Positions 28,575 through 58,308 of a DNA stretch of 64,000 bases are shown piece after piece (position 1 is the stretch's first letter; every line of letters starts with the position of its first letter). The stretch comes from Sporomusa acidovorans. GTDB lineage: Bacteria; Bacillota; Negativicutes; Sporomusales; Sporomusaceae. A program made the position numbers and the translations under genes. Where the stretch lies: positions 62,001 through 126,000 of the forward strand of contig NZ_FNAM01000009.1 of assembly GCF_900101845.1 (NCBI RefSeq), in the 5' to 3' direction. The notes under the pieces are model-generated. The model did no database searches and was not told where the DNA came from. It saw nothing but the letters and a program-made list of their open reading frames with translations.

Positions 28575-28668
28575 TTTTACATTATCAGAAAGTATAACCT
28601 TTCTGATAATAAGTAAGAACGACTAAGGCTTCTGCCGGCGTCCTAAGGGACTTGGCATAAGCCAAGTC
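28575..28668 (+). promoter_or_regulatory. Structured 5'-UTR motif, copy A
   Basis: TTTTACATTATCAG is followed by a 12-bp hairpin (28581-28592 / 28599-28610) and a 49-nt core (28620-28668) ending in the stem GACTTGGC/GCCAAGTC. The core is 44/49 identical to 58219-58267, which precedes an HD-GYP gene in the same orientation. The distance to the aroF start is 36 bp. It matches no riboswitch class I can recall. Confidence 0.65.
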
Positions 28669-28704
28669 TTATCTTAAAAATATTATTAACAGGAGGCGTT
28701 CGTA

Positions 28705-29718
28705 ATGGTTATTGTATTAAATACTTTAGCATCACCTGAACAAATTGAAAAACTGAAACAGGAATTAGAAAACTACGGCTTAAGTGTATGGCCCACATAC
28801 GGTAAATTTCAAACTATCCTGGGTATTGTGGGCGATACCGGCAAACTTGACCGTGATTATTTACTGAGCAAGCCGTATGTGGAGAAGGTACTGTCTGTAC
28901 AAGAACCCTATAAAAAGGCCAATCGTTCCTTCCATCCTGAAAATACGGTCATCCCGGTTGGCTCACAAGCAATTGGCGGCAATCAACTGGCCATTATCGC
29001 CGGTCCCTGCTCGGTTGAAAGCCGTGATCAGATTATCGGTATCGCCAAGGATGTAAAAGCCGCCGGCGCGGGTTTTCTGCGGGGTGGCGCTTTCAAACCG
29101 CGTTCTTCACCTTATAGCTTTCAGGGAATGCAGGAAGCAGGACTTGAATTATTAAAACAGGCCAAACAAGCAACCGGGCTGCCCATTGTTACCGAGATTA
29201 TGTCAATAAGTCAGTTGGAACAATACCACGAAGATATCGATGTTATTCAAATTGGCGCACGCAATATGCAAAATTTCGATCTCTTAAAAGCAGCCGGGCA
29301 AATTAATAAACCTATCCTGCTCAAACGGGGATTAAGCGCTACTATCGAAGAACTTTTAATGTCTGCCGAATATATTATGGCTGGGGGCAATGAAAACGTA
29401 ATTTTATGCGAACGCGGCATCCGGACCTTTGAAACCTATACCCGTAATACCCTTGACCTCAGTGCCGTGCTGGCAATCAAAAAACTCAGCCATCTGCCGG
29501 TTATTGTTGACCCAAGTCATGCAGCCGGACTGTGGTGGATGGTTGAATCTTTATCCAAAGCCGCTGTAGCCGTAGGTGCTGATGGTGTTATCATTGAAGT
29601 TCACCAAGACCCTAGTAATGCCAAATGCGACGGACAACAGTCCATAAAACCTGAACGATTTGCTGCACTAATGAATTCCTTACGGGAAATCGCGCGTATT
29701 GATAACCGCACTGTTTAA
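28705..29718 (+). CDS. aroF: 3-deoxy-7-phosphoheptulonate (DAHP) synthase
   Basis: This enzyme condenses phosphoenolpyruvate and erythrose 4-phosphate, the first step of the shikimate pathway. The 337-residue type I-beta protein has an N-terminal ferredoxin-like regulatory domain (about 1-85), as in the Thermotoga enzyme that is feedback-inhibited by aromatic amino acids. The barrel shows IAGPCSVESRDQI, RGGAFKPRSSPYSFQG, LLKRGLSAT and VDPSHAAG. AGGAGG precedes the ATG. Expression appears to be controlled by leader-peptide attenuation and a second structured 5'-UTR element. Confidence 0.95.
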   Translation: MVIVLNTLASPEQIEKLKQELENYGLSVWPTYGKFQTILGIVGDTGKLDRDYLLSKPYVEKVLSVQEPYKKANRSFHPENTVIPVGSQAIGGNQLAIIAGPCSVESRDQIIGIAKDVKAAGAGFLRGGAFKPRSSPYSFQGMQEAGLELLKQAKQATGLPIVTEIMSISQLEQYHEDIDVIQIGARNMQNFDLLKAAGQINKPILLKRGLSATIEELLMSAEYIMAGGNENVILCERGIRTFETYTRNTLDLSAVLAIKKLSHLPVIVDPSHAAGLWWMVESLSKAAVAVGADGVIIEVHQDPSNAKCDGQQSIKPERFAALMNSLREIARIDNRTV

Positions 29719-29792
29719 TAGAATGAGCTAAGTTTCAAATATGGAACTTAGTTCATTTTATGAGCCACATCCAATAATTTTCTTTTGAATTT

Positions 29793-29987
29793 CTAACTGA
29801 TTACTTCCTGAACCCGGCCAATGGTGCCATCGGTTAACCGGACTTTAATCCCACGATGATGCACCGGACTGCTTGTCAGAATGTCTTTGACGATTCCTTC
29901 GGTTAACTGACCTGACCGTTGATGCGGTTTTTGCACAATTTTCACTTTCGCACCTGGTACTATATTTTTTCGTTGTGTCCCGTCCAT
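29793..29987 (-). CDS. YwbE-family protein
   Basis: A 64-residue conserved protein of unknown function. MDGTQRKNI at the start and GIKVRLTDGTIGRVQEV near the end match the YwbE family of Firmicutes. The family-like N-terminus supports the ATG at 29987 over a GTG at 29999. The compact beta-rich sequence resembles a KOW/SH3-like fold. Confidence 0.85.
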   Translation of the reverse strand: MDGTQRKNIVPGAKVKIVQKPHQRSGQLTEGIVKDILTSSPVHHRGIKVRLTDGTIGRVQEVIS

Positions 29988-30056
29988 GTTATTTTCCACT
30001 TCCTGTTTATATTTAATGCGATAACTTTGTTCAAATATACCACCGGTCTGTATCGC

Positions 30057-30326
30057 TCAGTCTTTTTCAAGCGAAATATATTTAGTAAAGGCTTTCACCA
30101 TTTCTTCCTTGGCTTTGCGCTTAAGGCGTTTTATGGCATACTCACGCTTGCGAGCCATGCTTTCGGTAGCATGCTGTTCATAGTATACCAAAGCAACAGG
30201 CAGACGACTGCGGGTATAGCGGGCACCAATCCCCTTATTATGAGTCGCAATTCTTGCTTCCAGGTTGTTAGTCCAGCCGGTATAAAAGGTTCCGTCCGCA
30301 CATTGAACAATGTAAGTATACGGCAT
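30057..30326 (-). CDS. GIY-YIG nuclease-superfamily protein (UPF0213)
   Basis: An 89-residue single-domain GIY-YIG protein: YTYIVQCADGTFYTGWTNNL at residues 3-22, then RIATHNKGIGARYTRSRLP and a C-terminal ESMARKREYAIKRLKR. Stand-alone UPF0213 (YazA-like) members are thought to be structure-specific nucleases, but the role is not established. It lies 15 bp after the recQ stop codon, so the two may be co-transcribed. Confidence 0.9.
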   Translation of the reverse strand: MPYTYIVQCADGTFYTGWTNNLEARIATHNKGIGARYTRSRLPVALVYYEQHATESMARKREYAIKRLKRKAKEEMVKAFTKYISLEKD

Positions 30327-30341
30327 ATTACCTACCTAGTG

Positions 30342-32504
30342 TTATGCCTTGCCTGCCATGCTGAAATGTTTGCATAGCACCGCCTTTATTGCGGCATAAC
30401 TCACAGCATCGGGCAAAGCTTCTTTGATCGGCTTCAATTGGTTGCCGCCAATTTTTTTTATGGTAGCTATAATAAGTTCTTCGTACTGCTGGGGAATAAG
30501 CCTGTCCCAATTAATACTATGCCCCTCTTGCGCACAACGTACCAGATGATTTTGCACGGTGTTGACGGTTAAGTCCCGCGATTGAGCAATTTCTTCTAAA
30601 TTCATATCTTGACGGTACATGGTTAAGGTAATAAGATGGCTGGGTTCGGCCTCGGCTTTGCTGCTCTTTTTGCCTGCCGCCTGTTTAGCCGGTACGGCGG
30701 CAACAACTGTCTCCGTACCGCCTACCGGCGCAGCATGCTCTGTTAAATAGCGAGTAATAACAGCCAAAAATTCTTTCCCATATTTCTGTAGTTTTAACTC
30801 GCCAATCCCCTTGATCTGGTGCATAGCGTCAAGATCTTGAGGACGGTGCTGACTCATTTCCCGCAGGGTCGTATCGGCAAACACAACAAACGGCGGAACA
30901 TTTTCCCGTTCGGAAATTCGTTTGCGGCACTGCCGTAACAACTCAAACAGAGTATCATCCTGAACAGGCTGACGTTCGGTAAATACCTTCTGCCAAACTC
31001 TGGTCTCACCGCGCAACACTAAAGATGCCTCCGGTTCCAACTTTACTACCGGATATTCGCTTTCAGTCAGGCGTAAATAGCCGGTAGCAACCAAACGCTG
31101 TACAAGGGATTTAATAGCCTGTACGGTGCGCTCCGCCATCAAGCCATAGGTTGGCAGCCGGTCAAGGCCCAACTGTTGGACTTTTTTATTTTTTGACCCT
31201 TTTAACACATCGGCAATAACGGAAATGCCGAACCTTTCCTTCAGGCGGTAAATGCAAGAAAAGACTTTTTGAGCATCCACCGTAATGTCCACCTGTTCGC
31301 CATCAGCCGTACAATTGCCGCAATGACCGCAACCTTCTTCGGTTGTGGGCTCGCCAAAATACTGTAAAATATAATGCCGCAGACAATCGGGTGTATGACA
31401 ATAATCCACCATCTCCTGCAGCTTTTTTAATTCGTGCTGTTTACGTTCAGGCTGTTCAACGGACTTATCAATCAAAAAACGCTGTAACAGCGGATCTTGC
31501 GGTCCAAACAGCAGGATACATTCGCCCGGTGCGCCATCCCGTCCGCTGCGGCCGGCCTCTTGGTAGTAAGACTCCATGTTTTTCGGCATATTGTAATGTA
31601 TCACATAACGTACATTGGATTTGTCAATTCCCATTCCAAAGGCATTGGTGGCCACCATAACCCGGATATCATCATACAAAAACTGCTCCTGCTGAAACTT
31701 GCGTTCTTCATCGTTTAAGCCTGCATGATAATGCCCGGCAGCAATCCCCCTCTTCTTGAGCAGCGTATAAAGCGTGTCGACTTCTTTACGGGTTGCCGCA
31801 TAAATAATGCCGGCCTGACCGGCATTGGCCTTAACATATTTCTGGACAAATTGCGGTTTGTTTTCGCCGCGCAAAACAGAAAAAGAAAGATTAGGCCGGT
31901 CAAAGCCTGTTATATGTACTTGCGGCCATTGTAATGCCAATAGATTTTCAATATCATTTTTGACCTCAGGCGTAGCGGTGGCCGTAAAGGCACCAATTAC
32001 CGGTCTTGCCGGCAAATTGGCAATAAACGTGCTCACATTGCGATAGCTTGGGCGGAAGTCATGACCCCACTGCGAAACACAGTGGGCTTCGTCAATAGCC
32101 AGCATACTAATCTTTAGCTGTCCCACAACCGCTAAAAACCAGTCGGCGGTCAGCCGTTCAGGCGCTACATAGACCAGTTTATACCGTCCGGCACGCATAT
32201 GCTGCAGGCGCCGCCCCGCTTCTGAGCCACTGAGCGAACTATTGATAAACGTCGCCGGTATTCCTGCTTCCGTTAACGCGTCCACTTGATCTTTCATTAG
32301 CGAAATGAGCGGTGAAACCACGATGGTTATACCGGGAAGCAGCAGAGCTGGAATCTGAAAGCATAATGATTTGCCTGCCCCGGTAGGCATAATGGCGATG
32401 GTATCCTTGCCGCCAAGCAAACTCCCGATAACCTTGGCCTGCCCTGGCCGAAATTCATCATAACCGTAATATTTTTTTAATATTACCCGTGCCTTTGTCA
32501 ACAT
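30342..32504 (-). CDS. recQ: ATP-dependent DNA helicase RecQ
   Basis: A 720-residue 3'-5' DNA helicase used in recombination and replication restart. Helicase motifs: MPTGAGKS (Walker A), AIDEAHCVSQWGHDFRPSY, GAFTATAT and YYQEAGRSGRDG. The zinc-binding RQC region has CLRHYILQYFG and CGHCGNC. An HRDC domain (about 515-595) is followed by a further C-terminal helical segment with MNLEEIAQSRDLTVNTVQNH, as in long RecQ proteins of Firmicutes. GGAG precedes the ATG. Confidence 0.95.
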   Translation of the reverse strand: MLTKARVILKKYYGYDEFRPGQAKVIGSLLGGKDTIAIMPTGAGKSLCFQIPALLLPGITIVVSPLISLMKDQVDALTEAGIPATFINSSLSGSEAGRRLQHMRAGRYKLVYVAPERLTADWFLAVVGQLKISMLAIDEAHCVSQWGHDFRPSYRNVSTFIANLPARPVIGAFTATATPEVKNDIENLLALQWPQVHITGFDRPNLSFSVLRGENKPQFVQKYVKANAGQAGIIYAATRKEVDTLYTLLKKRGIAAGHYHAGLNDEERKFQQEQFLYDDIRVMVATNAFGMGIDKSNVRYVIHYNMPKNMESYYQEAGRSGRDGAPGECILLFGPQDPLLQRFLIDKSVEQPERKQHELKKLQEMVDYCHTPDCLRHYILQYFGEPTTEEGCGHCGNCTADGEQVDITVDAQKVFSCIYRLKERFGISVIADVLKGSKNKKVQQLGLDRLPTYGLMAERTVQAIKSLVQRLVATGYLRLTESEYPVVKLEPEASLVLRGETRVWQKVFTERQPVQDDTLFELLRQCRKRISERENVPPFVVFADTTLREMSQHRPQDLDAMHQIKGIGELKLQKYGKEFLAVITRYLTEHAAPVGGTETVVAAVPAKQAAGKKSSKAEAEPSHLITLTMYRQDMNLEEIAQSRDLTVNTVQNHLVRCAQEGHSINWDRLIPQQYEELIIATIKKIGGNQLKPIKEALPDAVSYAAIKAVLCKHFSMAGKA

Positions 32505-32652
32505 ATATTTTTATCTCCAATTCTAATCACCAGCAGTTGCTGTTAAAAAAATCCAATGCCAACTGCTTCTTTTACTATGATAGCATAAGACAGCCTATCT
32601 GGCTATTCCCTGCGGATCGCATCACTTTCCGTCATACCTGATCGTTATAGTA

Positions 32653-34593
32653 TCAGGAAAGGTGCCCGCAAGACACATAGCCACCCGGATAGTCAGCAAG
32701 TTCTTGCAGCGATGGCCGAGTTTCCGCTACCGCCAAGGCCAATAAGTCACCATTGATCTCCAATAATAACCGTTCTGCTTTTAAATACTTCACTGCTTTT
32801 TTAAGCTCTTCGCCGCCCCAATCCCGCCCTGCTACCCTTCGCACAAGTTGCGCAAGCTGTTGCTTACTAGTTACACTGCCGCACACTTGATAAACATCTT
32901 TGGTTATTTCACGCAGCCTATGGCACGATTGCACGGCACAAGGCCGCGAATCCGCTATTTCCCATACTTCTTCGTTGACCCTCCTCATACATAACAACGC
33001 TCTGGATTTACTCCAGAATCTTTTGCTCCATACCTTGACCTTTTCTTCCAGCTGGCGATAAACCGGATCAAAAGCCGGTTCATCCTGGTTAGAGTCTGCA
33101 AAATAATGCGCCAACTGATCAATAAGCCCCGGCAAATCAGGATAAACATACTGATATCCCGGAGCAGGACACAGTTTTAGCCCATATTGTTCCGGATGAT
33201 TTACATAGACGCTGCCCCGGTCAAAGGCCATTTGAATCATGTCATTCGGCGGCTGCAAATGAACAAGTTGGTCAATCCAGGCTTTCATTTCCCGGTACCA
33301 TTCCACCTTCTCACCGGGAAACCCCCACAGCAGGTTCCAGGAACAACGGATACCCAGTTCCAGCGCATTCTTTAATAGTTCGACATGTCGAATAGCCTTA
33401 TTCCCTTTATTCATTAATAACAAAGGGCCGTCATGCAGACTCTCGATTCCCGGTTGCAGCCAGCGAACTCCCGCTGCCGCCAATTTGCTCAATTGTTCCC
33501 GGGTAAGATTAGACTTGGTTTCATAAAAAATGTTATATGTTACAGGCAATACCGAAAAATCGGCAATCACGGTGCGCAAATGCTCCATGCCCAGAATGTT
33601 GTCGGTCGCTTCAAAAGACTGCACACCATAGCGTTTTGACAGCGTAGCAAATTCAGTTGCCACGCGTTGTCGGGACTTTGGACGATAACGGTAGCCCTGA
33701 CCGTTCAGCCCGCAAAACGTGCAGGGATGTCTTTCTCCCCACCAGCAGCCCCGGGACGTTTCCACTAATAAACCGGGAACAATATGCTCCTGCAATAAAC
33801 TTTGTTGTAATGCATGAAAATAATCATCATAGTCCGGGACAGGAACGCTGTCCATATCGTCGACAACCAGGCGTGGCACCTGATCGTCACTGTTAAAAGG
33901 CATACCTGCCCATAACACGCCATACGGCAATTCATTTTTGGCAGCAAGACCTCCTTGTGTCAGCACAGACCGGCAAAACTGAGAAAAACAATGGTCGGCC
34001 TCACCGGAAACAGTAAAATCCAACCAGGGAAAATTCTCTACCATGGTCAGCCCGGCCTTGCCTTCGCAATTTTCGCCGCCCATAACCGTCACTACCGCCG
34101 GTGCAAGTTGTTTGATCCGCCGTAACAGTGCCAAGGAAGCACAATTCTGTTCAAATAGAGACACACAGCCGACAATTTTAGGGTGACTGGCTAGAACGCG
34201 TTCAGCCACTTCGTTTACAAAACCAACCGCCAGGGAACGCACTTCACGGACAATAGCAAGCAGTCTCTCCAGGAACTGTGGATCAACCCCTGCCGGGCGG
34301 GTATGCCGGCGGTGCGTATAGTATAGCTCGTCTCCTGGCAGCCTGTACCCGGAAAAAGCCGCGGCAGCGAAGGCAAACTCCCCGCCAAAGGTTTGCCGGT
34401 AAGAGTGAGTTATGCTTTGGTACTTATACACACCAATCTGTTCGGCTAATGCCAAATTGCTATATTCCACTTTTGTTTTGATTCCAACCTGCATCAGGGC
34501 ACTTTTCAACAATCCCAGTGCCAATGATGGATGGGCAAGATCGGCAAACGGCATATTGACAAGACAAACATCTGCTTTTTCTGATACTGCCAT
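32653..34593 (-). CDS. B12-binding radical SAM protein, RiPP maturation family (rSAM_ocin_1-like)
   Basis: A 646-residue protein. The N-terminal B12-binding-like domain opens with DVCLVNMPFADLAHPSLALG. The radical SAM core has the spaced motif CX7CX2C (Cys283, Cys291, Cys294) in SRGCWWGERHPCTFCGLNG, then SFEATDNILG. These match the peptide (RiPP/bacteriocin) maturation radical SAM family 1. I use the ATG at 34593, with GGGGG upstream; the frame stays open to a GTG at 34692. No precursor peptide, protease or exporter is evident, so the substrate is unknown. Confidence 0.82.
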   Translation of the reverse strand: MAVSEKADVCLVNMPFADLAHPSLALGLLKSALMQVGIKTKVEYSNLALAEQIGVYKYQSITHSYRQTFGGEFAFAAAAFSGYRLPGDELYYTHRRHTRPAGVDPQFLERLLAIVREVRSLAVGFVNEVAERVLASHPKIVGCVSLFEQNCASLALLRRIKQLAPAVVTVMGGENCEGKAGLTMVENFPWLDFTVSGEADHCFSQFCRSVLTQGGLAAKNELPYGVLWAGMPFNSDDQVPRLVVDDMDSVPVPDYDDYFHALQQSLLQEHIVPGLLVETSRGCWWGERHPCTFCGLNGQGYRYRPKSRQRVATEFATLSKRYGVQSFEATDNILGMEHLRTVIADFSVLPVTYNIFYETKSNLTREQLSKLAAAGVRWLQPGIESLHDGPLLLMNKGNKAIRHVELLKNALELGIRCSWNLLWGFPGEKVEWYREMKAWIDQLVHLQPPNDMIQMAFDRGSVYVNHPEQYGLKLCPAPGYQYVYPDLPGLIDQLAHYFADSNQDEPAFDPVYRQLEEKVKVWSKRFWSKSRALLCMRRVNEEVWEIADSRPCAVQSCHRLREITKDVYQVCGSVTSKQQLAQLVRRVAGRDWGGEELKKAVKYLKAERLLLEINGDLLALAVAETRPSLQELADYPGGYVSCGHLS

Positions 34594-34902
34594 ATACTTA
34601 TTTCGCCCCCTTTCATTTTCCCCAAATAGGTCATCCAGAGCGGAAGTCTTGAATTTTTCAGCGATATCCCGCCTCCACGCACATAAGTACACTGTGTCTT
34701 TATTCCATATATTACTAACTTTTTCGCCCTTTATTGGGGTATGTCCTGCTAAATGACAATAAGCATGATAAAATTCTCACAAACCCTTTCCGACCATTGG
34801 CTATAAAAAAACCACCTCCGTCGCCAATGATCAGTTCTTGCCTAATCACTTGCTAGGAAGCGGGATTTTCATTTTTCATTTGTTTTTACTTTGGCTATCG
34901 AT

Positions 34903-35238
34903 TTAGCTCCAGCTACTCCAAACCTCCGGACAATACCCCACTGTCGCCTTAGCGCCGTTGCGCACAATCGGCGTCCGTAATAGGAGCGGATGCTCCAGCA
35001 GTTCTTCCTCTATGTTGTGAACCAAATATTTCAAATTGCGTTTAGCATACTCCTTGCCTGATTTGTCAATAAGATTGTCCAGGCCGCCAGCCGCTGCTCT
35101 TACCTTATCCAGTTCTCCCTTGCTTAACCCTCTAACCGTTAAATCAATAAACTGAAAAGGTATCTTGCGTTCTTTAAAATACCGTTCAGCCTTACGGGTA
35201 TCCTGACATTTTTTTGTCCCCACTATTTGTATATTCAT
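34903..35238 (-). CDS. ArsC/Spx-family thioredoxin-fold protein
   Basis: A 111-residue protein of the arsenate reductase/Spx superfamily. It begins MNIQIVGTKKCQDTRKAERY, with a single N-terminal cysteine in CQDT rather than CXXC, and has the KYLVHNIEEELLEHPLLLRTPIV stretch ending in a cis-proline-like TPIV. It resembles the YffB-like group of unknown role more than arsenate reductase. It lies 27 bp downstream of the ABC-F gene and may share its transcript. Confidence 0.85.
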   Translation of the reverse strand: MNIQIVGTKKCQDTRKAERYFKERKIPFQFIDLTVRGLSKGELDKVRAAAGGLDNLIDKSGKEYAKRNLKYLVHNIEEELLEHPLLLRTPIVRNGAKATVGYCPEVWSSWS

Positions 35239-35265
35239 CGTCCTTCAACTAACTCCTTTATCTGC

Positions 35266-37170: not shown

Positions 37171-37353
37171 AGTACTGTCCTTTTCATGAGTTTTCTTCAT
37201 TTTAACACACTTATCAGGTTTGTTGAAGAAATGCTCTTTACTTTTATGGAAAATAGTAGTATATTAGATTCTCATCTATATCGTATACCCTTAGTTTTGC
37301 TTGTGCAAACTGAAATAACAGCTCATTTATTATAGAAAAGAAAGGTGTTTTTA

Positions 37354-38679: not shown

Positions 38680-38693
38680 TCAGCCTTGCCCTT
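38665..38693. terminator. Bidirectional hairpin holding both stop codons of convergent genes
   Basis: Arms AAGGGCAAGGC and GCCTTGCCCTT (11 bp) flank the loop CTAATCA, which contains TAA of the plus-strand helicase and TGA of the minus-strand topoisomerase. The palindrome is itself coding on both strands. The following sequence is only slightly T-rich. Confidence 0.55.
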
Positions 38694-41864: not shown

Positions 41865-41888
41865 AAAGTAATAATCAGCCTCCCTGTA

Positions 41889-46369: not shown

Positions 46370-46371
46370 AC

Positions 46372-46406: not shown

Positions 46407-46416
46407 ATTGAAAAAA

Positions 46417-46803: not shown

Positions 46804-46861
46804 AAGGTTATTCACTCCTTTATTTTTTGTTAGTATCTGCCCAAATTCGCCTTTTATACCC

Positions 46862-47095
46862 TTATATTGCCACCAACGCCAACGCCATCCGGGTATCATA
46901 CGCACAAACTGGACAATAGATTACATGCAAACAATAATCTTCTGATTGAAGAGGCAGGGATTCTTTATCCATATAGGGACTATAGGGTCCCAGATAATTG
47001 CTAATCGAACCGCCGTCAACCATTTTTCCTCCACAGTAGGGGCATGTTTCGACAATTGCCTGCAGGGCATTGCACAACGGACAAACTTTTTCCAT
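46862..47095 (-). CDS. Small zinc-ribbon protein
   Basis: A 77-residue protein with two CXXC pairs at the N-terminus (CPLCNALQAIVETCPYCGG) and one near the C-terminus (VIYCPVCAYD). This looks like a zinc ribbon or rubredoxin-like knuckle arrangement. I do not recognise a named family. The ATG at 47095 follows GAGGTGAG. It lies 58 bp upstream of the DUF1540 gene on the same strand. Confidence 0.7.
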   Translation of the reverse strand: MEKVCPLCNALQAIVETCPYCGGKMVDGGSISNYLGPYSPYMDKESLPLQSEDYCLHVIYCPVCAYDTRMALALVAI

Positions 47096-47282
47096 GGGTC
47101 TCACCTCATAGTTTAGTTTGTTCGCGCAATCAGACATTCATCCATTTACGCTTCCTTTACCATGTCTCTTCAACAATAAGCCAAAATGCTATACTACAAA
47201 AATAAAAATTACATAAACTAACCAGACAGAACCGTATCCATATAGAGTAGCAAAAAATATATATTTACAGGTGATAATAAAT

Positions 47283-48677: not shown

Positions 48678-48690
48678 AAGCGAAAAGCCA

Positions 48691-48723
48691 AAGCCCCTGT
48701 CCGTAAATAACGGACAGGGGCTT
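48691..48723. terminator. Bidirectional terminator between hydrogenase and nucleoside kinase genes
   Basis: AAGCCCCTGTCCGT and ACGGACAGGGGCTT form a perfect 14-bp stem with a 5-nt loop between two convergent genes. Confidence 0.85.
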
Positions 48724-48728
48724 ACAAT

Positions 48729-50393: not shown

Positions 50394-50492
50394 CTAAAAG
50401 GCCTCCTTATGCGGATAAAACTCTCTATACACTCTATGTATTATTCAACCATATGACCCCATTTCCTGCATTAAATTACAGTGCCACATAAA

Positions 50493-50529
50493 GAAACCTG
50501 GCCTCAGCAATATCGCTGCGCCAGGTTTC
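50493..50529. terminator. Hairpin after the small membrane protein gene
   Basis: GAAACCTGGC and GCCAGGTTTC, 10-bp stem, 16 bp downstream of the minus-strand gene; plus-strand flank is CTTTTT. Confidence 0.6.
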
Positions 50530-50545
50530 CTTTTTAGAAAAGTAC

Positions 50546-50722
50546 TTATCGCAACATTTTCAGCAAGCGGTAGGCGATGATTGGCAACGGTGCTCTTCTT
50601 ACTGCCAAACGCATCCCGAGTAATACCAAAAAAAAGGCCCCTATTACATGAACAATCCAAAAGCCGGTGCGAGGAAATTCAAGGGTAGTGTCGTCGATAA
50701 GGTTATTGTGCTGACAGCTCAT
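50546..50722 (-). CDS. Small single-pass membrane protein
   Basis: A 58-residue protein with one predicted membrane helix (FWIVHVIGAFFLVLLGMRLA) and a basic C-terminus. AAGGAGG lies 8 bp before the ATG at 50722. I do not recognise a family. It stands between the nucleoside kinase and aminotransferase genes. Confidence 0.65.
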   Translation of the reverse strand: MSCQHNNLIDDTTLEFPRTGFWIVHVIGAFFLVLLGMRLAVRRAPLPIIAYRLLKMLR

Positions 50723-50807
50723 TCGGATCGACCTCCTTTTTATTAGTATTTCCCACACTTTAATAAATGAATAATGGTAATCTATACTATTCATTGCCAA
50801 GTTTATT

Positions 50808-52055
50808 TTACTTTTCGACTTCAGCCATGGCCTGAGCCATTTTGGCAGCCATTCCGGTTATTTTAAATGACGGAACGGCACATACGGCAATACGAATTCC
50901 TTTTCCCAGCGGTACAGCAAAGATATGGTCTTCGTGCAACTTATTGCATACGGCGTCAGGATCCTTAGCCGGGACAGTCAGGAAGAAGCCGGCTATGTAT
51001 GGCAGCATGTGCAGGTTAGCTGCTTTGGCCTCGCGGACAAAAATATCCGCCCGCGCATGGATAAGTCCATAGTATTGTGCGCGTTCTTTCTCCACTTGCG
51101 CCATAATGGTCTTATCATTATAAATGGTCGCTAAAAGCCGCATGCATCCCCGGTTAATATTAGACCAGGTAGCCCTGCTGGTAAATTGGTTAATATCGGC
51201 AAACTCCCGGGCAACATCCTTATTGGGGGAAATGCCGATCATCGCACCTGTGCGCTGCCCATACATAGTGTAGCCTTTGGACATACTAAAAGCCAGGATA
51301 ATAAGCACGTTGTCCGGTAAATTAGTAAACTTTTTCATGAATGCGCGGCACTCATTTTTCTCGCCCGCATAATCAATATAAGCAATATCCACCAGCAGTA
51401 TCAAGCGTTTGGACTGGTCTTTAGCCGCATTTTTAACTACATCCAACAAACTGTCCCAATCGCTGTTGCTTAAACTATAGCCGGTAGGATTATGTGCCGG
51501 GGTATTAATAATAGTAACCAGGCTGTTTTGTTTTCTTAACAGTTCTGCAACTTTGCTTTCATAGGATTTAGTATTAAAATTTTGTTTTTCATCAAACAAA
51601 GTATAGGTGTCCAACTTGCGCAAAGCATCTTGACACAACACTTTATACGGACCCCAGAACCAGTCGGAAGTTAGCAGAGTATCCCCAATCTCTGTGTAAT
51701 TGGCAACCGTATGATGTATGACCCCTGAGCCGCCGGAAGTTGCTACGGCACTCGTATAAGCTTCAGGCCGATTATCGGCAAAAGCCAAACTTGTGGCAGC
51801 CTCCAAAAACTCAGGCAGACCAGCAATAGGCGCATAGTTAATCACTTCATTAATTGGCAGGCTGCGGTAAACCTTTTCCACTGTAGGCAAACATACCAGC
51901 GCTTCCTTGTCATCCAGGATTGCGCCAATAGTAGCGTTGACAACTTTATCTTTGCCATATTGGGCAGCATCCTTATTGGCTGCTGCCGAGGCCCCAAAGA
52001 TCTTATCAGTCGCAAATTTTCCTTTAGCATGTGGTGCGGCAAGACTTAACGTCAT
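50808..52055 (-). CDS. Class I/II aminotransferase, probable aspartate or aromatic aminotransferase
   Basis: A 415-residue fold-type I PLP enzyme. NTPAHNPTGY holds the conserved Asn-Pro segment, VDIAYIDYAG the PLP-contacting Asp/Tyr, and SMSKGYTMYGQRTG the PLP lysine. Its closest pattern is the atypical tyrosine/aspartate aminotransferase group rather than AspB. GGGAGGAG precedes the ATG. It lies 25 bp after asnS; an aminotransferase next to asnS is a recurrent Firmicute arrangement, favouring aspartate as substrate, though not proving it. Confidence 0.82.
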   Translation of the reverse strand: MTLSLAAPHAKGKFATDKIFGASAAANKDAAQYGKDKVVNATIGAILDDKEALVCLPTVEKVYRSLPINEVINYAPIAGLPEFLEAATSLAFADNRPEAYTSAVATSGGSGVIHHTVANYTEIGDTLLTSDWFWGPYKVLCQDALRKLDTYTLFDEKQNFNTKSYESKVAELLRKQNSLVTIINTPAHNPTGYSLSNSDWDSLLDVVKNAAKDQSKRLILLVDIAYIDYAGEKNECRAFMKKFTNLPDNVLIILAFSMSKGYTMYGQRTGAMIGISPNKDVAREFADINQFTSRATWSNINRGCMRLLATIYNDKTIMAQVEKERAQYYGLIHARADIFVREAKAANLHMLPYIAGFFLTVPAKDPDAVCNKLHEDHIFAVPLGKGIRIAVCAVPSFKITGMAAKMAQAMAEVEK

Positions 52056-52080
52056 TTTATCTCCTCCCGTTATTCAAAAA

Positions 52081-53373
52081 TCATGGATACATTTTATGCA
52101 GCATACGCGGGAATGGAATCGTTTCGCGTATGTGCTCAAGGCCACACAACCAGGCAACAGTCCGTTCAAGACCTAACCCAAAACCGGAATGTGGCACTGT
52201 ACCAAACCGTCTTAGATCAAGATACCACGCAAAAGCTTCTTCAGGCAGCTTGTGCTCCGCAATCCGCTGTTTTAATAATGTCAAATCATCAATACGCTGG
52301 CCGCCGCCAATAATTTCACCATAGCCTTCAGGCGCCAATAAATCGGCTCCCAGTACAACTTCAGGATTATCCGGGTCAGGTTTCATATAAAATGCTTTGA
52401 TCGCGGTTGGATAGCGATGAACAAATACCGGCGCATTAAAGTGACTGGAAATAATGGTTTCATGAGGAGCGCCAAAATCATCTCCCCAAGTAAACTCTTC
52501 TCCAGCCTGTTTTAAAATTTCTACTGCTTCGGTATAACTAATCCGTGGAAATGGCAATTTGATGGCTTTCAGTTTCTCGACATCACGTTCCAGCGTTTTA
52601 AGCTCACTCAGGCATTTGTCCAGCACACGCTGAATTACATAGCCTATCATTTCCTCTTGGAGCTTCATGTTATCGTCAATATCATAGTAGGCCATTTCCG
52701 CTTCGATCATCCAAAATTCCAGCAGATGCCGGCGGGTTTTAGACCTCTCTGCCCGGAAAGTTGGGCCAAAACAATAAATACGGCCTAAAGCCATCGCGTT
52801 CGCTTCATTATACAGTTGGCCGCTTTGCGATAAATAGCCCTTTTCGCCGTGATAGTCAAGTTCAAATAAGTTCGTCGTACCTTCACAGGCCGCCGGTGTT
52901 ATGATTGGCGCATCAGCCAGGATAAAGTCGCGCTCATAAAAAAAGTTCCTGAGTGCGTGTTCAATCTCGGAACGAATACGCAATATGGCCGCCTGACGCG
53001 GTGTACGAATCCAGAGATGACGGTGTTCTGCCAAAAAATCAACACCGTGTTCTTTGTGAGTAATCGGGTAATCCTCGGCAACTCCAACAATCTCTAAGGA
53101 AGTTACATTCATTTCGTAACCGCCAACTGACCGGGGCTCTTCCCGTACAAGCCCTTTCACGCGAACTGAGCTCTCTTGGGTTAGACTCCTGATTTTTTTA
53201 AACAGTTCCTCACCGATTTCCTGTTTAACAACCACAGCTTGCATGAGTCCGGAGCCATCCCTGATAATAAGAAAGATAATCTTACCGGATGATCGCTGAT
53301 TATAAACCCAGCCTTGCACAGTCACTTGCTGTCCAACATGTTGGGACATTTTTTTTATTAGTACGGCTTCCAA
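52081..53373 (-). CDS. asnS: Asparaginyl-tRNA synthetase
   Basis: A 430-residue class IIb synthetase. An OB-fold anticodon domain (about 1-105; [19 protein letters not shown]) precedes the catalytic core. Motif 2 is [16 protein letters not shown], then [13 protein letters not shown], and motif 3 is [15 protein letters not shown]. Asn specificity over Asp is supported by overall length and lack of the bacterial GAD insert. The start is TTG with AAAGGAGGG upstream. No T-box was seen in the leader. Confidence 0.92.
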
Positions 53374-53536
53374 ATAATACCCTCCTTTGCTTAGCAGGTG
53401 TATCTAATCTATATCCTAGAAAATGATGGGTGCTATGCCTATTATGTACTTATTCTGGTTATGCCATTATATTTCCTGTTAAAAATTTAGCAAATATCAG
53501 TTTTTTATTGATGAATATCAGATTTTACAATATGAA

Positions 53537-53556
53537 AAGCAGGCTTCCGCCTGCTT
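53537..53556 (-). terminator. Terminator of the SASP gene
   Basis: AAGCAGGC/GCCTGCTT, 8-bp stem with a 4-nt loop and TTTTC on the minus strand, overlapping the stop region. Confidence 0.75.
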
Positions 53557-53815
53557 AGGGTTGTTGATTAATGTCTTGTTTGGCTGTCATGGTGCTGCCG
53601 GTAGCTTGCGTGTTGCCTTGCCCAAACTGAGTTTCTTGAGACTGAATCATTTTGCGAACCATTTGTCCGCCTACCCGGCCATTGTCAGCCGAGGTAAGAG
53701 CACCTTTGTACGTGTTTTTGTAATCTTTCAATCCTAATTCGGCAGCCGTTTCTTCTTTCAGATGATCGAGGCCACTTTGCGCTGCAGGGTTCACTGGTTT
53801 TTTACTCCTTGACAT
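53555..53815 (-). CDS. Alpha/beta-type small acid-soluble spore protein
   Basis: An 86-residue SASP that coats and protects spore DNA and is degraded at germination by the GPR protease. LDHLKEETAAELGLKDYKN matches the N-terminal helix, with the GPR-type site in EETAAELG, and the second signature is SADNGRVGGQMVRKMI. The C-terminal Gln/Thr-rich tail is longer than usual. GGAGG lies upstream of the ATG. Expression is expected from a sigma-G promoter. It is the clearest evidence that the host makes endospores. Confidence 0.92.
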   Translation of the reverse strand: MSRSKKPVNPAAQSGLDHLKEETAAELGLKDYKNTYKGALTSADNGRVGGQMVRKMIQSQETQFGQGNTQATGSTMTAKQDINQQP

Positions 53816-53915
53816 TACGCAAAACCTCCATTTAATTTATTTTTGGTGCCTGTTTATAGGTTGTCTCTTATTTAATAATTGATGCCATGTAAGTTATGGG
53901 TTACTTGGAAAAAAT

Positions 53916-53941
53916 AAAGCGGCTCGCAATTGAGCCGCTTT
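53916..53941 (-). terminator. Terminator of the outer-membrane protein gene
   Basis: AAAGCGGCTC/GAGCCGCTTT, 10-bp stem followed by ATTTTTTCC on the minus strand, 20 bp after the stop. Confidence 0.85.
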
Positions 53942-53960
53942 TGGTAAAATAAGTTAATAA

Positions 53961-54833
53961 CTAGAAATTAACGGAAAATTCTACGTTAGTACGTTTTTGA
54001 TCAGCGTCGGTGGTATTATTTTTACCCATATCATGATATACGGCAAGGTTAGCATTATCAGATACTTTGTAATTGGCTTTTACTTTAAATCCTTTGGAAT
54101 CCATATAGTTACCATTAGTAGTGTGATTATCAATCGCACCTGCTTCAATATCACGATATATTAAGGAATAATCCACGTCACCTTTTTTCGCAGCGTTACC
54201 AAATTTCACTTCAGCAAGATATCCGTTAGCACTGGTGTCAGAATTCTTTACATACTCAAGATTGAACACTGCATTATCGGTAATTTGAGTTGCAGCATTT
54301 ACGCCCCAGTATTTGGTGTCATCTTGTTTAAGATAGTTAGCACCAAAATTAACTTTGCCAAAAGAAGTTGCCATTTCTGCCAAGGAAATTTCTTTGGCAT
54401 CTTTATCATGGCCATAGAATCCGCTTAATTTAACATTTTCTAAAGTGGTGCCTACTTGTACGCCACTAAAGTTATCATCATCCATCAACAAGCCTTTGCC
54501 GGAATATAACGACTGCCGGCCAGCTTTAATATCAAAATTATTAAGTTTCGCGCCAAGGTAAGCTTGATCAAATGTTACGTTATGGTCACCGTCGCCATGT
54601 TTCAGATTGTTATCCATTCTTGCACGGCTGTGAAGATAGAAAGTATCATCAATGCCGGCGTCCATGTTCAAGCGAATGCGATTAGTCAAATAATTGCTAG
54701 CACTATCAGTTTGGTTATTCCATTCAATATTAGCGTCACCGGAAAAAGTAGGAGCAGCAGCGAATACGGAAGCAGTCGAGAGCGTCAGGGCAGCCATAAC
54801 GGCAGCAGCAAGCAGTTTCTTTTTCATTTGCAT
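53961..54833 (-). CDS. Outer-membrane beta-barrel protein (porin-like)
   Basis: A 290-residue exported protein. A clear signal peptide (MKKKLLAAAVMAALTLSTAS, cleavage near VFAAAP) is followed by alternating amphipathic strands such as NYLTNRIRLNMDAGID, AYLGAKLNNFDIKAGRQSLY and KVNFGANYL. It ends in NVEFSVNF; the terminal Phe is the usual outer-membrane barrel targeting signal. It resembles the putative porins of diderm Firmicutes. AGGAGG precedes the ATG. The upstream 300 bp appear structured. Confidence 0.88.
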   Translation of the reverse strand: MQMKKKLLAAAVMAALTLSTASVFAAAPTFSGDANIEWNNQTDSASNYLTNRIRLNMDAGIDDTFYLHSRARMDNNLKHGDGDHNVTFDQAYLGAKLNNFDIKAGRQSLYSGKGLLMDDDNFSGVQVGTTLENVKLSGFYGHDKDAKEISLAEMATSFGKVNFGANYLKQDDTKYWGVNAATQITDNAVFNLEYVKNSDTSANGYLAEVKFGNAAKKGDVDYSLIYRDIEAGAIDNHTTNGNYMDSKGFKVKANYKVSDNANLAVYHDMGKNNTTDADQKRTNVEFSVNF

Positions 54834-54849
54834 CTTTCCTCCTAATTAA

Positions 54850-55085
54850 TTGGAATATTTTGAATCTCCGAAAACCGGTACGCCTACGGAGATAACTTAT
54901 CCAGACTATTTGTTGGAGGAAGATAAGCCAATTAACTATGAGTGTCCACGTTTCCTCATAACTGCCTTGCTTATCTCTAATCCAGTTGCTTAGCCTAACA
55001 AGCTATCCTGTTACCTTCTCCCTTCATGGTGAGAGGAACTTTCCTTAGGTTTCAAGCAGCACTTTTTGTTTACTGCTTTATGTTT
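54850..55085 (-). ncRNA. Structured 5' leader of the porin gene (candidate)
   Basis: The gene-free 413 bp upstream of the porin hold nested pairings on the minus strand. AGATAAGC pairs with GCTTATCT and encloses AGTTATGAG/CTCATAGTT, which pairs with two wobbles that work only in the minus-strand RNA. Nearer the gene, TCTCCG pairs with CGGAGA around 54866-54893. No known riboswitch is recognised. Confidence 0.45.
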
Positions 55086-55204
55086 TATGTAATTCGCCTG
55101 TTTCGACATAATTCCTTCTTATTTGACAAATAAACTTCTTGGTAAATTAATGTAGTCTTAACAGTTCCTTTTTATATGACTTTGTTAAATTTACATAAAA
55201 AAAA

Positions 55205-55228
55205 GACAGTCCTTTTTATCAGACTGTC
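55205..55228 (-). terminator. Terminator of the aspartokinase gene
   Basis: GACAGTC/GACTGTC, 7-bp stem followed by eight T on the minus strand, 19 bp after the stop. Confidence 0.85.
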
Positions 55229-55246
55229 ATACATTTATTATCGGTT

Positions 55247-56467
55247 TTATGCAGGGAAAAAGCGGGAATGGATCGCGTTTACGGCTTCTTTTACTTTACT
55301 TGAGTCAATCAGACACGAAATACTAATCTCGGAAGTACTGATAACTTCAATGTTAATACCGGCATCGGCCAGCGCGCCAAATGTTGCAGCCGCAATACCC
55401 GGATTGCCTAACATACCGGCACCAACTACAGAGACCTTGGCAACATTTTCTTCAATCTTAAGACCGCTAAAATCCATTTGACTGTTCAGTTTCTCCATAA
55501 TTTTTTTTGCCTGGGGAACATCTCCCTGTGCAATTGTGAATACCATGTCAATAATGTGTTTATCCATTACGCGAACACTCTGAACGATCATATCTACATC
55601 AATATTTGCTGCGGCCAGAGTCGAGAATATTTTATAGGCAATTCCCGGCTGATCCGGTACTCCTAAAACAGCTATTTTCGCGACATTCGTATCATGCGTT
55701 ACACCACGAATAACAAACTCTTTTTCTTCCATTGTATATTCCTCCCTGATAAATGTACCTGGCTCATTCGTAAATGTAGAGCGGACGTGAATAGGCATAC
55801 CATAATGCTTACCCAATTCTACGGAACGTGGATGCATTACACCGGCTCCCAGCCGGGCCATTTCAAGCATTTCATTATACGTAATTTCTTTCATTCGTCT
55901 GGCATCTGGAACAACCCTGGGGTCAGAAGAATAAATTCCATCGACATCCGTATAGATTTCGCAATGATCGGCTTTAAGGCCGGCGGCTACCGCTACTGCC
56001 GTGGTGTCAGAACCACCTCGGCCCAAAGTAGTGATATCACCCCTTTGCGTCAATCCCTGAAAGCCTGCCACAACCACAATCTTGCCTGCGTTAAATTCTT
56101 CCCAAATCCTATCCGTATTAATCCCCGTAATTTTTGCTTTGTTAAACATCTCATTGGTTGTAAAACCCGCCTGAAAACCGGTCATCGACACTGCTTCATG
56201 GCCAAGCTCAACAAATGCCATGGCTAAGAGTGCAATGGAAACTTGTTCACCGGTTGCCAAAAGCATGTCCATCTCACGCCCATAAGTTTTGTCCGTTATT
56301 GCTTTCGCCAAACTTATTAAATCATCTGTAGTATCCCCCATCGCTGATACTACAACGACAATTTTATCGTCAGGTTTTTTTTCCCGTAATACCCGCCTGG
56401 CAACCGCCATAATTTTATCTGGTGTAGCCACTGAGCTGCCGCCAAATTTTTTTACAATTACTGCCAT
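55247..56467 (-). CDS. Aspartate kinase
   Basis: A 406-residue aspartokinase, first step of the Lys/Thr/Met pathway and of diaminopimelate and dipicolinate supply for cell wall and spores. Kinase motifs: VKKFGGSSVATPDKI, TTLGRGGSDTTAVAVA and TDVDGIYSSDPR. Two C-terminal ACT domains (about 265-406) end the protein, as in the lysine- or threonine-regulated LysC type. The ATG at 56467 follows AAAGGGGGA. No lysine riboswitch is visible in the short leader. Confidence 0.94.
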   Translation of the reverse strand: MAVIVKKFGGSSVATPDKIMAVARRVLREKKPDDKIVVVVSAMGDTTDDLISLAKAITDKTYGREMDMLLATGEQVSIALLAMAFVELGHEAVSMTGFQAGFTTNEMFNKAKITGINTDRIWEEFNAGKIVVVAGFQGLTQRGDITTLGRGGSDTTAVAVAAGLKADHCEIYTDVDGIYSSDPRVVPDARRMKEITYNEMLEMARLGAGVMHPRSVELGKHYGMPIHVRSTFTNEPGTFIREEYTMEEKEFVIRGVTHDTNVAKIAVLGVPDQPGIAYKIFSTLAAANIDVDMIVQSVRVMDKHIIDMVFTIAQGDVPQAKKIMEKLNSQMDFSGLKIEENVAKVSVVGAGMLGNPGIAAATFGALADAGINIEVISTSEISISCLIDSSKVKEAVNAIHSRFFPA

Positions 56468-56565
56468 GCCTATCCCCCTTTGTTCTACAGTATATAATAG
56501 CATGGCAGTTTATATTCTCCATACAAGTACAATATCCTTCTACAAGTGGACAAAATTGTATTTTT

Positions 56566-57006
56566 TTACTTGTCTAAGAATAAATTGATAAAAATTAAGC
56601 CTGCAAGGATAATCTCCCAACAGCCTTTAGTAACTAAAATAATGCTATCTTCCTGATTGTAACACCATTCCGTAAAGTTCCGATAAGCACCAGCCATATC
56701 CTGCCACAAGGCAATGGTTCCCAAAATTGCGGCCAGCAATGCCACAACTGTAAGGCCAATTGTGGGAAAAGCAGCACTAATGGCAATAAAATAGCAGGAA
56801 AGAATTATCCATGTCAAAAAGATGAGTCCCAGTGTTAAACGCCGGGCAACCTTTGAACCGACACGTCTTGCCATCTTTAATAACGCCAAGCGAATTAACC
56901 GGCGACCACAAAGTACTTGGCCTTTTTCATAACTTCTATACCGCTGGGGAATATCATAATTCCATACAATCGAACAGCAAGCTATGACTAACAGCAGTTT
57001 CTGCAT
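56566..57006 (-). CDS. Membrane protein of unknown function
   Basis: A 146-residue protein with a hydrophobic N-terminus, a basic central region (RRLIRLALLKMARRVGSKVARR) and two to three predicted membrane helices including IFLTWIILSCYFIAISAAF and IGLTVVALLAAILGTIALW. I recognise no family. GGGAGG lies 8 bp before the ATG. It sits between aspartokinase and an HD-GYP gene. Confidence 0.7.
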   Translation of the reverse strand: MQKLLLVIACCSIVWNYDIPQRYRSYEKGQVLCGRRLIRLALLKMARRVGSKVARRLTLGLIFLTWIILSCYFIAISAAFPTIGLTVVALLAAILGTIALWQDMAGAYRNFTEWCYNQEDSIILVTKGCWEIILAGLIFINLFLDK

Positions 57007-57086
57007 ACACTCAACCTCCCGGTATATTATATGCAGTTCTCCCTGGTACTTATCTATATTATAGCACTATTCAATTGTTTGAACAA

Positions 57087-58157
57087 TCAGACATCTATAA
57101 CTTCATCGATCCTTATATCTTTATTCCTATTTAAATCAATAAATTCATTATCTTCTGTCCTGACCACCGGTCGGCTGTGGCTGACACTATCAAAGTAGAC
57201 AACCTCAGCAACCCGGCCATCGTGTAACCGCATAAATTTTCCTGTTAAATAGTTGCTAATATTTTGTAAGAATACGGCACAGAATTCCGCATCAATTTTA
57301 CCAAACATTTCGCTGTTCAATGTTTCAATAACACTAAAAGGATCGACCTTACTTTTATAAACCCGATCAGAAGTCATCGCGTCATAAATGTCAATGATAG
57401 CAATAATCTTGGCAAAATAATGAATTTGCCCACCTGAAAGTTTCAGTGGGTAACCACTGCCATCCATTCGTTCATGGTGTTGCAGAACACCCAGTCGTAT
57501 AGCTTCTGAAAGTTCTTGATTATCACGTAAAAGTTCATAGCCAAGTATCGGGTGATACCGCATAACTTCAAGTTCCTTCTTGGATAATTTATCCGGCTTA
57601 TTGAGTATATTTATATCGACTAAGGCTTTGCCGGTATCATGCATTAGCCCTGATAGTATTAAGTCTTCTAAATCTTGCCCAGTGACACCAAGCCATTTTC
57701 CTAATACACCCGCCAATATGGAGACATTTAAAGAATGGTGCAGTGTATAATCATCTTTGCGCTCCAGCATCAGCAAAAACGATATAATTCCCCGTGTATT
57801 GGTCAATTGTCCAATTAACGTATGGGCTAGTTCCCACATAGATGCGACTGCCAATTTTTTATAGCGCCGTGTCTGCTCAAAGTAAATTTTTAACTTGTCT
57901 AAAGAATTTTCATAATTTTCCCGAGTTTGCCGCGCGCATTCTTCAAGCTCTTGTACATGATCAACTACCGACTGGTTAATTTCCTGGATATCAATCTGTT
58001 GAAGCCCCCAGTTAGTAATTTGTTCAATAATGCGCTGTGAAAGTATGATACCCTCACTTAAAAGTACACGACCATTATTGCCTAAAACGGGTTTACCTAC
58101 GGTCATACCTGGAACAACGTCTTTTACGTTGCATGGCTTGGTAATAAACTGCCCCAT
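57087..58157 (-). CDS. HD-GYP domain protein, probable c-di-GMP phosphodiesterase
   Basis: A 356-residue cytoplasmic paralogue of 25356-26411 with the same layout. A short N-terminal domain (VVPGMTVGKPVLGNNGRVLL) is followed by a helical linker and the HD-GYP domain: HSLNVSILAGVLGKW, GLMHDTGKALVDI (HD at 173-174) and HHERMDGSGYP (227-237). It should hydrolyse cyclic di-GMP. A structured 49-nt motif also found before DAHP synthase lies 62-110 bp upstream, so expression may be controlled at the RNA level. Confidence 0.88.
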   Translation of the reverse strand: MGQFITKPCNVKDVVPGMTVGKPVLGNNGRVLLSEGIILSQRIIEQITNWGLQQIDIQEINQSVVDHVQELEECARQTRENYENSLDKLKIYFEQTRRYKKLAVASMWELAHTLIGQLTNTRGIISFLLMLERKDDYTLHHSLNVSILAGVLGKWLGVTGQDLEDLILSGLMHDTGKALVDINILNKPDKLSKKELEVMRYHPILGYELLRDNQELSEAIRLGVLQHHERMDGSGYPLKLSGGQIHYFAKIIAIIDIYDAMTSDRVYKSKVDPFSVIETLNSEMFGKIDAEFCAVFLQNISNYLTGKFMRLHDGRVAEVVYFDSVSHSRPVVRTEDNEFIDLNRNKDIRIDEVIDV

Positions 58158-58218
58158 AGTTTCACCTACTCATATACATTTTTACGTTATGTCACGCAAG
58201 CTCCTCTATATAAGAAGA

Positions 58219-58267
58219 GACTTGGCTGGTGCCAAGTCCCTCAGGACGTCGGCAGAAGCCCTAGTCG
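58219..58267 (-). promoter_or_regulatory. Structured 5'-UTR motif, copy B
   Basis: The 49-nt minus-strand core is 44/49 identical to 28620-28668 and ends in the stem GACTTGGC/GCCAAGTC. TTTTACATTATCAG directly precedes it (58268-58281), as it does upstream of copy A. The HD-GYP start codon is 61 bp downstream. Confidence 0.65.
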
Positions 58268-58280
58268 CTGATAATGTAAA

Positions 58281-58308
58281 AGAGCCAGGGATAAGCTCCC
58301 TGGCTCTC
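58281..58308 (-). terminator. Terminator-like hairpin before motif copy B
   Basis: GAGCCAGGGA and TCCCTGGCTC form a strong stem followed by TTTTAC on the minus strand. It may end the transcript of the 58372 gene or act as an attenuator for the HD-GYP gene. Confidence 0.65.

Follow-up and report, generated by a model that had tools for sequence, protein, structure and literature searches.

Two matching motifs of Sporomusa acidovorans as probable copies of a small mobile repeat often found behind terminator-like hairpins

The bcr1–bcr3 repeats (group A) of the Bacillus cereus group are intergenic, carry features of mobile elements, are linked to a TTTAT motif and resemble miniature inverted-repeat transposable elements (MITEs) (PMC6542083; PMC3446304). 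The bcr families measure 100–400 bp, bcr1 reaches tens of copies per genome, and locations in untranslated regions (UTRs) or operons are frequent (PMC6542083; PMC3446304); over all 18 bcr families, the share of copies present in mRNA was 40 to 51% in two strains (PMC3446304). Insertion sequences of the IS200/IS605 family move as single strands, use the lagging-strand template as target, and choose their cleavage sites through guide tetranucleotides 5′ of hairpins (PMC5371812; PMC8266576). Repetitive extragenic palindromes (REPs) are intergenic palindromes of 20–40 bp with a GTAG or CGTC tag, situated mainly between unidirectional or convergent genes (PMC3733652). Here, we analyzed two matching motifs in a 64,000-nt stretch of the Sporomusa acidovorans genome (assembly GCF_900101845.1, contig NZ_FNAM01000009.1, positions 62,001–126,000; hereafter the window), one upstream of a DAHP synthase gene (copy A) and one upstream of a gene for an HD-domain protein (copy B). 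A preliminary description of this DNA had left the choice between a new cis-regulatory RNA and a small palindromic repeat family. The latter was supported by many further copies, by repeat-free sites in relatives, by head-to-tail arrays and by the lack of a common kind of downstream gene. Both motifs are probably copies of a small non-autonomous mobile repeat, for which a single-strand, Y1-like step is tentatively proposed; that the repeat is mobile and non-autonomous, taken for itself, appears very likely.

The repeat family and its copies in the window

The two cores of 49 nt each (28620–28668 on the plus strand and 58219–58267 on the minus strand) were found where the preliminary description had placed them, identical at 44 of 49 positions and 36 nt (DAHP synthase gene) and 61 nt (HD-domain protein gene) before the ATG. 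Both are preceded by TTTTACATTATCAG and by a hairpin with a T-rich tail. Scanning the window for the 21-nt core pattern GGACTTGGCANNAGCCAAGTC with up to three mismatches gave four matches, all at the two cores, against 0.01 expected; two places gave four matches because GGACTTGGCANNAGCCAAGTC is palindromic.

In the S. acidovorans genome (6.0 Mb, 126 contigs), 40 matches to a 101-bp query around copy A (blastn, E ≤ 0.001) and 47 matches to R1, a covariance model of the core with 63 positions (E ≤ 0.01), were detected. Eleven of 12 Sporomusaceae genomes matched at E ≤ 0.001. At this threshold the Sporomusa genomes contained 45 (S. acidovorans), 64, 14, at least 150, 41, 29 (in a genome that is 58% complete), 28, 24, and 84 copies, and those of other Sporomusaceae genera 0, 5, and 25. 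At the order level, 23 of 28 genomes matched at E ≤ 1e-4, with 0 to 6 copies in each of the 16 genomes outside the Sporomusaceae. A scan of named genomes for an exact 21-mer returned at least 109 stretches, and the matches listed came only from Sporomusa silvacetica, S. malonica, Sporomusa sp. KB1, metagenome-assembled genomes (MAGs) of Pelosinus, and unclassified Bacillota or Negativicutes MAGs. Plasmids yielded one partial match (44 of 105 bases, Sporomusa termitida), while phages and viral contigs, scanned with one exact 21-mer, yielded none. Nine copies tied for the top model score in genome G003, which suggests recent spread there, although the tie does not by itself prove that the nine are identical. 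No described Sporomusa repeat was found in the open-licence literature searched, which is not proof that none exists.

In the repeat unit of approximately 91–125 bp, hairpin 1 is followed by the longer, imperfect hairpin 2; the left end is CATTATCAG, TCCAG, or GTCTACCAG, and the right end is CTTA. In many copies, hairpin 1 has a GAAAG-TATAAC-CTTTC-like middle between variable outer stems. Element groups were formed from an nhmmer search (207 hits in 139 loci, 180 of them at ≥30 bits, merged into 152 groups). Among these, 21 carried hairpin-1 type a (CATTATCAG...), 76 type b (TCCAGATGG...), and 27 type c (GTCTACCAG...), with 28 not classifiable; more types occurred in other loci. Hairpin 2 has the form TAAGAA-c-GACT-a-GGCTT-c-TGCC-ggc-GTCC-TGAA-GGAC-tt-GGCA-c-AAGCC-a-AGTC-tt-TTCTTA, and some copies contain an additional TACCCCCTAAAGGGGTACAG hairpin or longer inserts.

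The boundaries of the two window copies were deduced from sites without the repeat. Copy A (28580–28676, plus strand, 97 bp) is of type a and runs from CATTATCAG to CTTA. Fold and alignment placed its hairpin 1 (ATTATCAGAAAGTATAACCTTTCTGATAAT) at 28581–28610, and its long, imperfect hairpin 2, with the core modeled as R1, occupies 28614–28676 according to the fold, compensatory changes, and the R1 match. The 12-bp hairpin regarded earlier as an extra of copy A is in fact the ordinary hairpin 1 of the family. Copy B (58211–58276, minus strand, 66 bp), likewise of type a, has lost most of hairpin 1 through an internal deletion of 31 nt, so that CATTATCAG adjoins CGACTA...CTTA. Immediately 5′ of copy A, the scan tool called a terminator-like hairpin, AAAAAACCTAAGGCTCATTGAGCCTTAGGTTTTTT (28539–28573, no strand assigned), which is followed by a T-rich tail with a TTTA end (28574–28579, plus strand), the insertion point. 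Upstream of copy B lies a hairpin GAGCCAGGGAGCTTATCCCTGGCTC followed by TTTTA (58282–58306, minus strand); the scan tool called none there, and the hairpin, with 10 pairs, was recovered by a looser test alone. The terminator-like hairpin reported before both motifs was therefore upheld for copy A and, at copy B, by the looser test only. The neighbors, both outside the repeat, are the DAHP synthase gene (28705–29718, plus strand; PF00793, 5.3e-80) and the HD-domain (HD-GYP-like) protein gene (57087–58157, minus strand; PF13487, 1.8e-24), the Pfam matches bearing out their earlier naming.

Rfam 15 returned no family at gathering score in the whole window. A permissive Rfam search of six loci gave seven matches, none overlapping the window copies (L001, L020). 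Elsewhere, two sub-threshold matches overlapped a copy: SQ1002 on the opposite strand in L004 (27.9 bits, gathering score 128, E 0.015) and, in L005, mir-1252, which covered 8 nt at the left end (34.6 bits, gathering score 70, E 0.012). With one locus each, both were taken as chance. Two matches above gathering score lay near copies, namely 5_ureB_sRNA (L003:2855–3094, plus strand, 123 bits, running off the locus end) and, near another copy, a cobalamin riboswitch (L004:1695–1866, plus strand, 109 bits).

Further repeats were noticed in the same material. Locus L434 (G021:C1:2960600-2961500), which comes from a different family within the order, holds an array of five 69-bp units distantly related to the repeat. 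A sister repeat ending in ...GGCTTCCGCTKTCGCYAAAGGCTCGGCGCAAGCCGTGTTTTCTTTA, of like architecture, stops exactly at the start of the next repeat in L044, L049, L077, L079, L118, L124, and L126. A piece resembling it occurs in L008, and its core pattern was absent from the window. At the G004 sites matching L009, L017, L035, L057, and L096, another palindromic repeat of the AACCGCAGAG... / ...CTCTGCGGTT type was found in several of the same intergenic places.

Insertion sites and gene context

An orthologue of aroF, the gene downstream of copy A, was recovered from 10 of the 12 genomes searched, and two gave none. In the aroF spacer, the repeat immediately followed one shared terminator in G000 (type a), in G005 and G007 (type b), and in G006 (decayed, type b), and it was absent from the remaining six (G004, G008, G009, G003, G010, and G011). 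A hairpin similar to that at 28539–28573 was retained in the spacers of relatives without the repeat. Of the loci extracted for copy B, only that of G008 shows the HD-GYP gene in conserved order; its site contains no repeat and keeps a hairpin with a T-tail.

Genome G004 belongs to a close relative and has few copies. Junctions were compared with 1.6 Mb of its sequence, in which both flanks of 34 of the 152 element groups lay no more than 400 bp apart. Exact ends were defined for 123 copies, 21 of which could be aligned across the junction, and seven of these alignments were gapless within six columns of it: L035, L048 at 331 (the empty site joining CAGTTTTTTA to TTTAAC), L072, L073 at 5593 (TGTTG to TCAGC), L106, L134 (CTTTTAG to TGAGAG), and L138 at 4204 (AACTTTTTTA to CCTCAT). 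In L073 at 5593 and in L134 the target does not end in TTA and the copy still ends in CTTA, with which the comparison of L181 with G004 agrees; the TTA is therefore the element's own, leaving no 3-bp duplication at these sites. Overall, the aligned junctions indicate that a target duplication of a consistent kind is absent. Insertion without duplication behind a short fixed motif, as in IS200/IS605, was what these sites displayed in the main, with a loose motif. In L035, the older of two copies is shared with G004, and the newer one had inserted exactly 3′ of its CTTA; insertion behind a CTTA of its own type would therefore explain how the observed head-to-tail arrays with a 91-bp period arose.

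The four bases 5′ of the left end were TTTA in 48 and CTTA in 13 of 124 copies, and the last base of the flank was A in 80. A terminator-like hairpin with a T-rich tail stood directly 5′ of 71 of 123 testable copies, compared with a summed mean of 14.0 in a control in which the upstream part was shuffled and the last 12 bases were kept. These frequencies show that the repeat inserts mostly 3′ of T-tracts with a TTTA/CTTA-like end, in many cases the T-tracts of intrinsic terminators. By settling there, the repeat would mostly spare genes and alter 5′ and 3′ UTRs.

Gene context was scored from mechanical calls of open reading frames (ORFs). After exclusion of 14 element groups in or overlapping ORFs and 19 missing one neighbor, 119 remained, with upstream and downstream genes oriented sense/sense in 61, antisense/antisense in 24, sense/antisense in 22, and antisense/sense in 12. 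The downstream gene was thus antisense in 46 of 119, and an antisense upstream gene was combined with a sense downstream gene in only 12 of 36. Since a 5′-UTR regulator should enrich the antisense/sense class, which here was the rarest, a new riboswitch is unlikely. Sense/sense contexts are in excess because the repeat inserts after the terminators of upstream sense genes, and its place just before genes is likewise attributable to insertion behind the terminator of the preceding gene. Of 63 downstream sense proteins, 54 were compared with Pfam (eight of the nine omitted were of the longest kind), giving 141 families, none in more than two members, and no pathway theme. The copies were accordingly not confined to the sense 5′ UTRs of a restricted set of genes. 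Scatter without relation to 5′ ends, which the preliminary description had named as evidence against a regulatory RNA, was largely what emerged, yet sense/sense was still the commonest context. With the frequent antisense downstream genes and with the motif missing from the orthologous copy-A spacer in six of ten genomes, the proposal of a new cis-regulatory RNA was not supported, and the apparent sharing of a regulatory RNA by two unrelated genes was explained away.

Folding, movement, and rival explanations

Two mutually exclusive foldings of the repeat were predicted, the long hairpin 2 and a local terminator-like hairpin. For copy A (z = −7.6), hairpins 1 and 2 were both predicted. In a 20-row, Sporomusa-dominated alignment, the long hairpin was 86% paired and its covariation did not exceed that of shuffles, and the local hairpin was 98.1% paired with covariation slightly above them (24 to 36 of 500 shuffles reached it). 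An order-level set combined eleven rows of earlier loci with nine rows that came from other families of the order (eight loci, L428–L435). Here, the long hairpin had changed on both sides in 8 of its 18 pairs (25 cells vs. 9.8 in shuffles), typically from GACT/AGTC to AACT/AGTT or from TGCC/GGCA to CGCC/GGCG, and the covariation score was 0.230 vs. 0.148, with none of 500 shuffles as high, shuffles that take no account of relatedness. This result is supportive rather than blind, since the rows were added after compensatory changes had already been seen. The changes indicate that the long hairpin has been maintained across the order. On the same rows, 59 of 500 shuffles reached the covariation score of the local hairpin, which did not stand out clearly from them, and the attenuator folding, well paired as it is in Sporomusa, was rejected as the conserved structure.

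At the right end, TTGGCA is followed by 17 bases and then by TA plus flank. In 85 of 149 copies (149 of the 152 groups were tested), this position matched TATAAT at four or more of six bases, compared with 5 to 25 at spacings of 15, 16, 18, and 19. The frequency was alike for sense and other neighbors. The scan tool reported a promoter-like pair at copy A (28652–28681, spacing 18) and none at copy B. The right end is a possible outward promoter, a candidate that could influence the next gene.

For movement, we propose that the unit travels as a folded single strand. Cleavage after YTTA in the target and after CTTA at the element's right end, followed by joining of the strand, would be carried out in trans, most simply by an HUH tyrosine (Y1) transposase of IS200/IS605 or RAYT type. 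Such a reaction would explain why no consistent duplication is left, why YTTA stands at both ends, and why there is a single orientation to the T-tract. Terminator tails may be favored as T-rich TTTA sequences next to a hairpin that eases opening of the DNA, and any effects on the DAHP synthase and HD-domain protein genes would be by-products of insertion. The Y1-type step is our tentative preference, held with less than even confidence. Y1 transposase genes were present in 11 of the 12 Sporomusaceae genomes, the one without them being the genome without the repeat. TnpB was rejected as the mover: it matched in 7 of 12 genomes and in none of G003, G008, G009, and G010, which contain 64, 28, 24, and 84 copies. 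In the search for a long autonomous version, 56 left ends lacked a neighboring right end and 54 right ends lacked a neighboring left end. Where a right end did follow at a distance, the left end mostly belonged to a copy with an internal expansion of roughly 55–80 bp, and many other unpaired ends lay at locus ends, were diverged, or reflected a palindromic hairpin 1 read on the other strand. Two wider distances, of 2.8 kb (L048) and 5.5 kb (L060), were discarded as candidates, the left ends belonging to full-length copies (L048:3133–3227 and L060:5844–5961). Separately, among seven Y1 genes of S. acidovorans, GGGACGGTTC-type sequence flanked those in L143 and L146 on both sides and that in L142 on one side (upstream). 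These RAYT-like genes have GGGACGGTTCT / AGAACCGTCCC-type sequence near their ends, which looks like a separate repeat system.

Several observations weigh against this account. The left flank was other than TTTA or CTTA in 63 of 124 copies. In 14 of the 21 alignable junctions a few bases had been gained or lost, mostly in T-runs, or the flanks were diverged or poorly alignable; a 2-base duplication is a possible reading of L073 at 2120 and L081, and for L106, one of the gapless cases, the G004 site itself keeps a remnant left end. For copy B (z = −5.0), a local GACTTGGC/GCCAAGTC hairpin was predicted rather than the long one. The loci gathered by the single exact 21-mer were, among the matches listed, mostly from S. 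silvacetica. The correlation of Y1 genes with the repeat is weak because the genome lacking both is small and 72% complete. No repeat was found within about 1.5 kb of Y1 or TnpB genes in 51 loci (38 of 94 Y1 and 13 of 13 TnpB places), no long version with a gene between both ends occurred among the loci examined, and the flanks of the Y1 genes of S. acidovorans were unlike the repeat. Co-orientation with replication, a bias that single-strand transposition should produce, was judged by GC skew and observed for 98 of 125 copies (the strand count covered 135 of 150 matches of G010, G006, and G011, with 10 of G010 unassigned and G009 left out). We rejected this bias as proof of a single-strand mechanism, as genes favor the leading strand to the same degree (459 of 570 ORFs in samples, one ambiguous G010 sample excluded) and the two biases are confounded. 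Finally, the two hairpins of the repeat are unlike each other, a difference from IS200/IS605 elements; IS608 has like hairpins at both ends.

The same evidence bears on the rival explanations. As a cis-regulatory RNA, the repeat would control the downstream gene with GACTTGGC-ACAA-GCCAAGTC plus TTTTCTTA as terminator and GGCTT.TGCC/GGCA.AAGCC as antiterminator. The exclusive foldings, the high pairing and slight covariation excess of the terminator-like hairpin in Sporomusa, the compensatory changes in hairpin 2, the predominance of sense/sense contexts, and the sense position of both window copies 36–61 nt before a start codon are in its favor; the 46 antisense downstream genes, the six aroF orthologues without the repeat, the missing gene theme, the head-to-tail arrays, and the order-wide result for the terminator-like folding make it highly improbable. 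If the repeat were a classical MITE, with a DDE transposase that duplicates 2 or 3 bp (TA/TTA) of the target, the outcome at targets ending in TTA (L048, L138 at 4204, L031) would be identical, and the two extra bases at a few junctions (L073 at 2120, L081) would suit this explanation. We nevertheless regard it as improbable, given that the CTTA end persists at targets not ending in TTA (L073 at 5593, L134, L181), that the ends TCCAG and CTTA have no terminal inverted repeat by inspection, and that no duplication of fixed length was found.

A site-specific recombinase of integron, Xer, or IS110 kind, acting on a double strand or on an attC-like folded strand with YTTA as the core, is unlikely, if less so than a MITE. 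It would fit YTTA at both ends, the lack of a consistent duplication, and cassette-like head-to-tail arrays, and the bulged imperfect hairpin is reminiscent of attC. Against it, the copies are dispersed through genomes and the target is very short and loose for such an enzyme. The cleavage site of integron attC is the R-box GTTRRRY; the right end of the repeat is CTTA. There is, in our estimate, very little chance of an RNA-based mover, for which the reverse transcriptase of a group IIC intron, working in trans, would be an example. The terminator preference would agree with it, whereas inspection revealed no group II intron ends in the repeat; group II intron genes were not searched for. Group IIC introns have a stem-loop upstream of their insertion site, and IIC-attC introns can target putative terminators as well (PMC7923331). 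The mobile repeat with a Y1-like single-strand step was retained as the best explanation.

Comparison with known systems

Like the Sporomusa repeat, non-autonomous derivatives of IS200/IS605 leave no consistent duplication, insert 3′ of a short motif, and keep a single target orientation. The predicted folds add subterminal hairpins at both ends as a further shared feature, copy B being without hairpin 1. A difference is that no parent insertion sequence with these ends was found. The REP/BIME elements with their RAYTs are comparable in being palindromic, intergenic, and high in copy number, with Y1-family genes in the genome. However, inspection of the consensus sequences A1 and A2 revealed no unpaired GTAG or CGTC tag, CGTC occurring only inside hairpin 2; the unit has about 91–125 bp rather than 20–40 bp and is not adjacent to the Y1 genes examined. 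BOX, ERIC, and RUP are also small structured intergenic repeats, and BOX is modular, but their sequences and target rules appear to differ from those of the Sporomusa repeat.

The group A bcr repeats, with bcr1, are like the Sporomusa repeat in kind, their TTTAT link corresponding to its TTTA/CTTA-like sites; the hosts differ. The Sporomusa repeat was seen to prefer terminators, to exchange its hairpin 1, and to insert next to a right end of its own kind. With hundreds of copies, filled and unfilled sites, arrays, and an order-wide structure, the repeat provides a data set with which the movement of bcr1-like repeats can be tested. Perhaps, though we would sooner bet against it, the Sporomusa repeat and the TTTAT-linked bcr repeats belong to one wider class, inserted as folded single strands into the YTTA of terminator tails by an undescribed enzyme or host process, with the outer hairpin freely replaced and the long inner hairpin kept.

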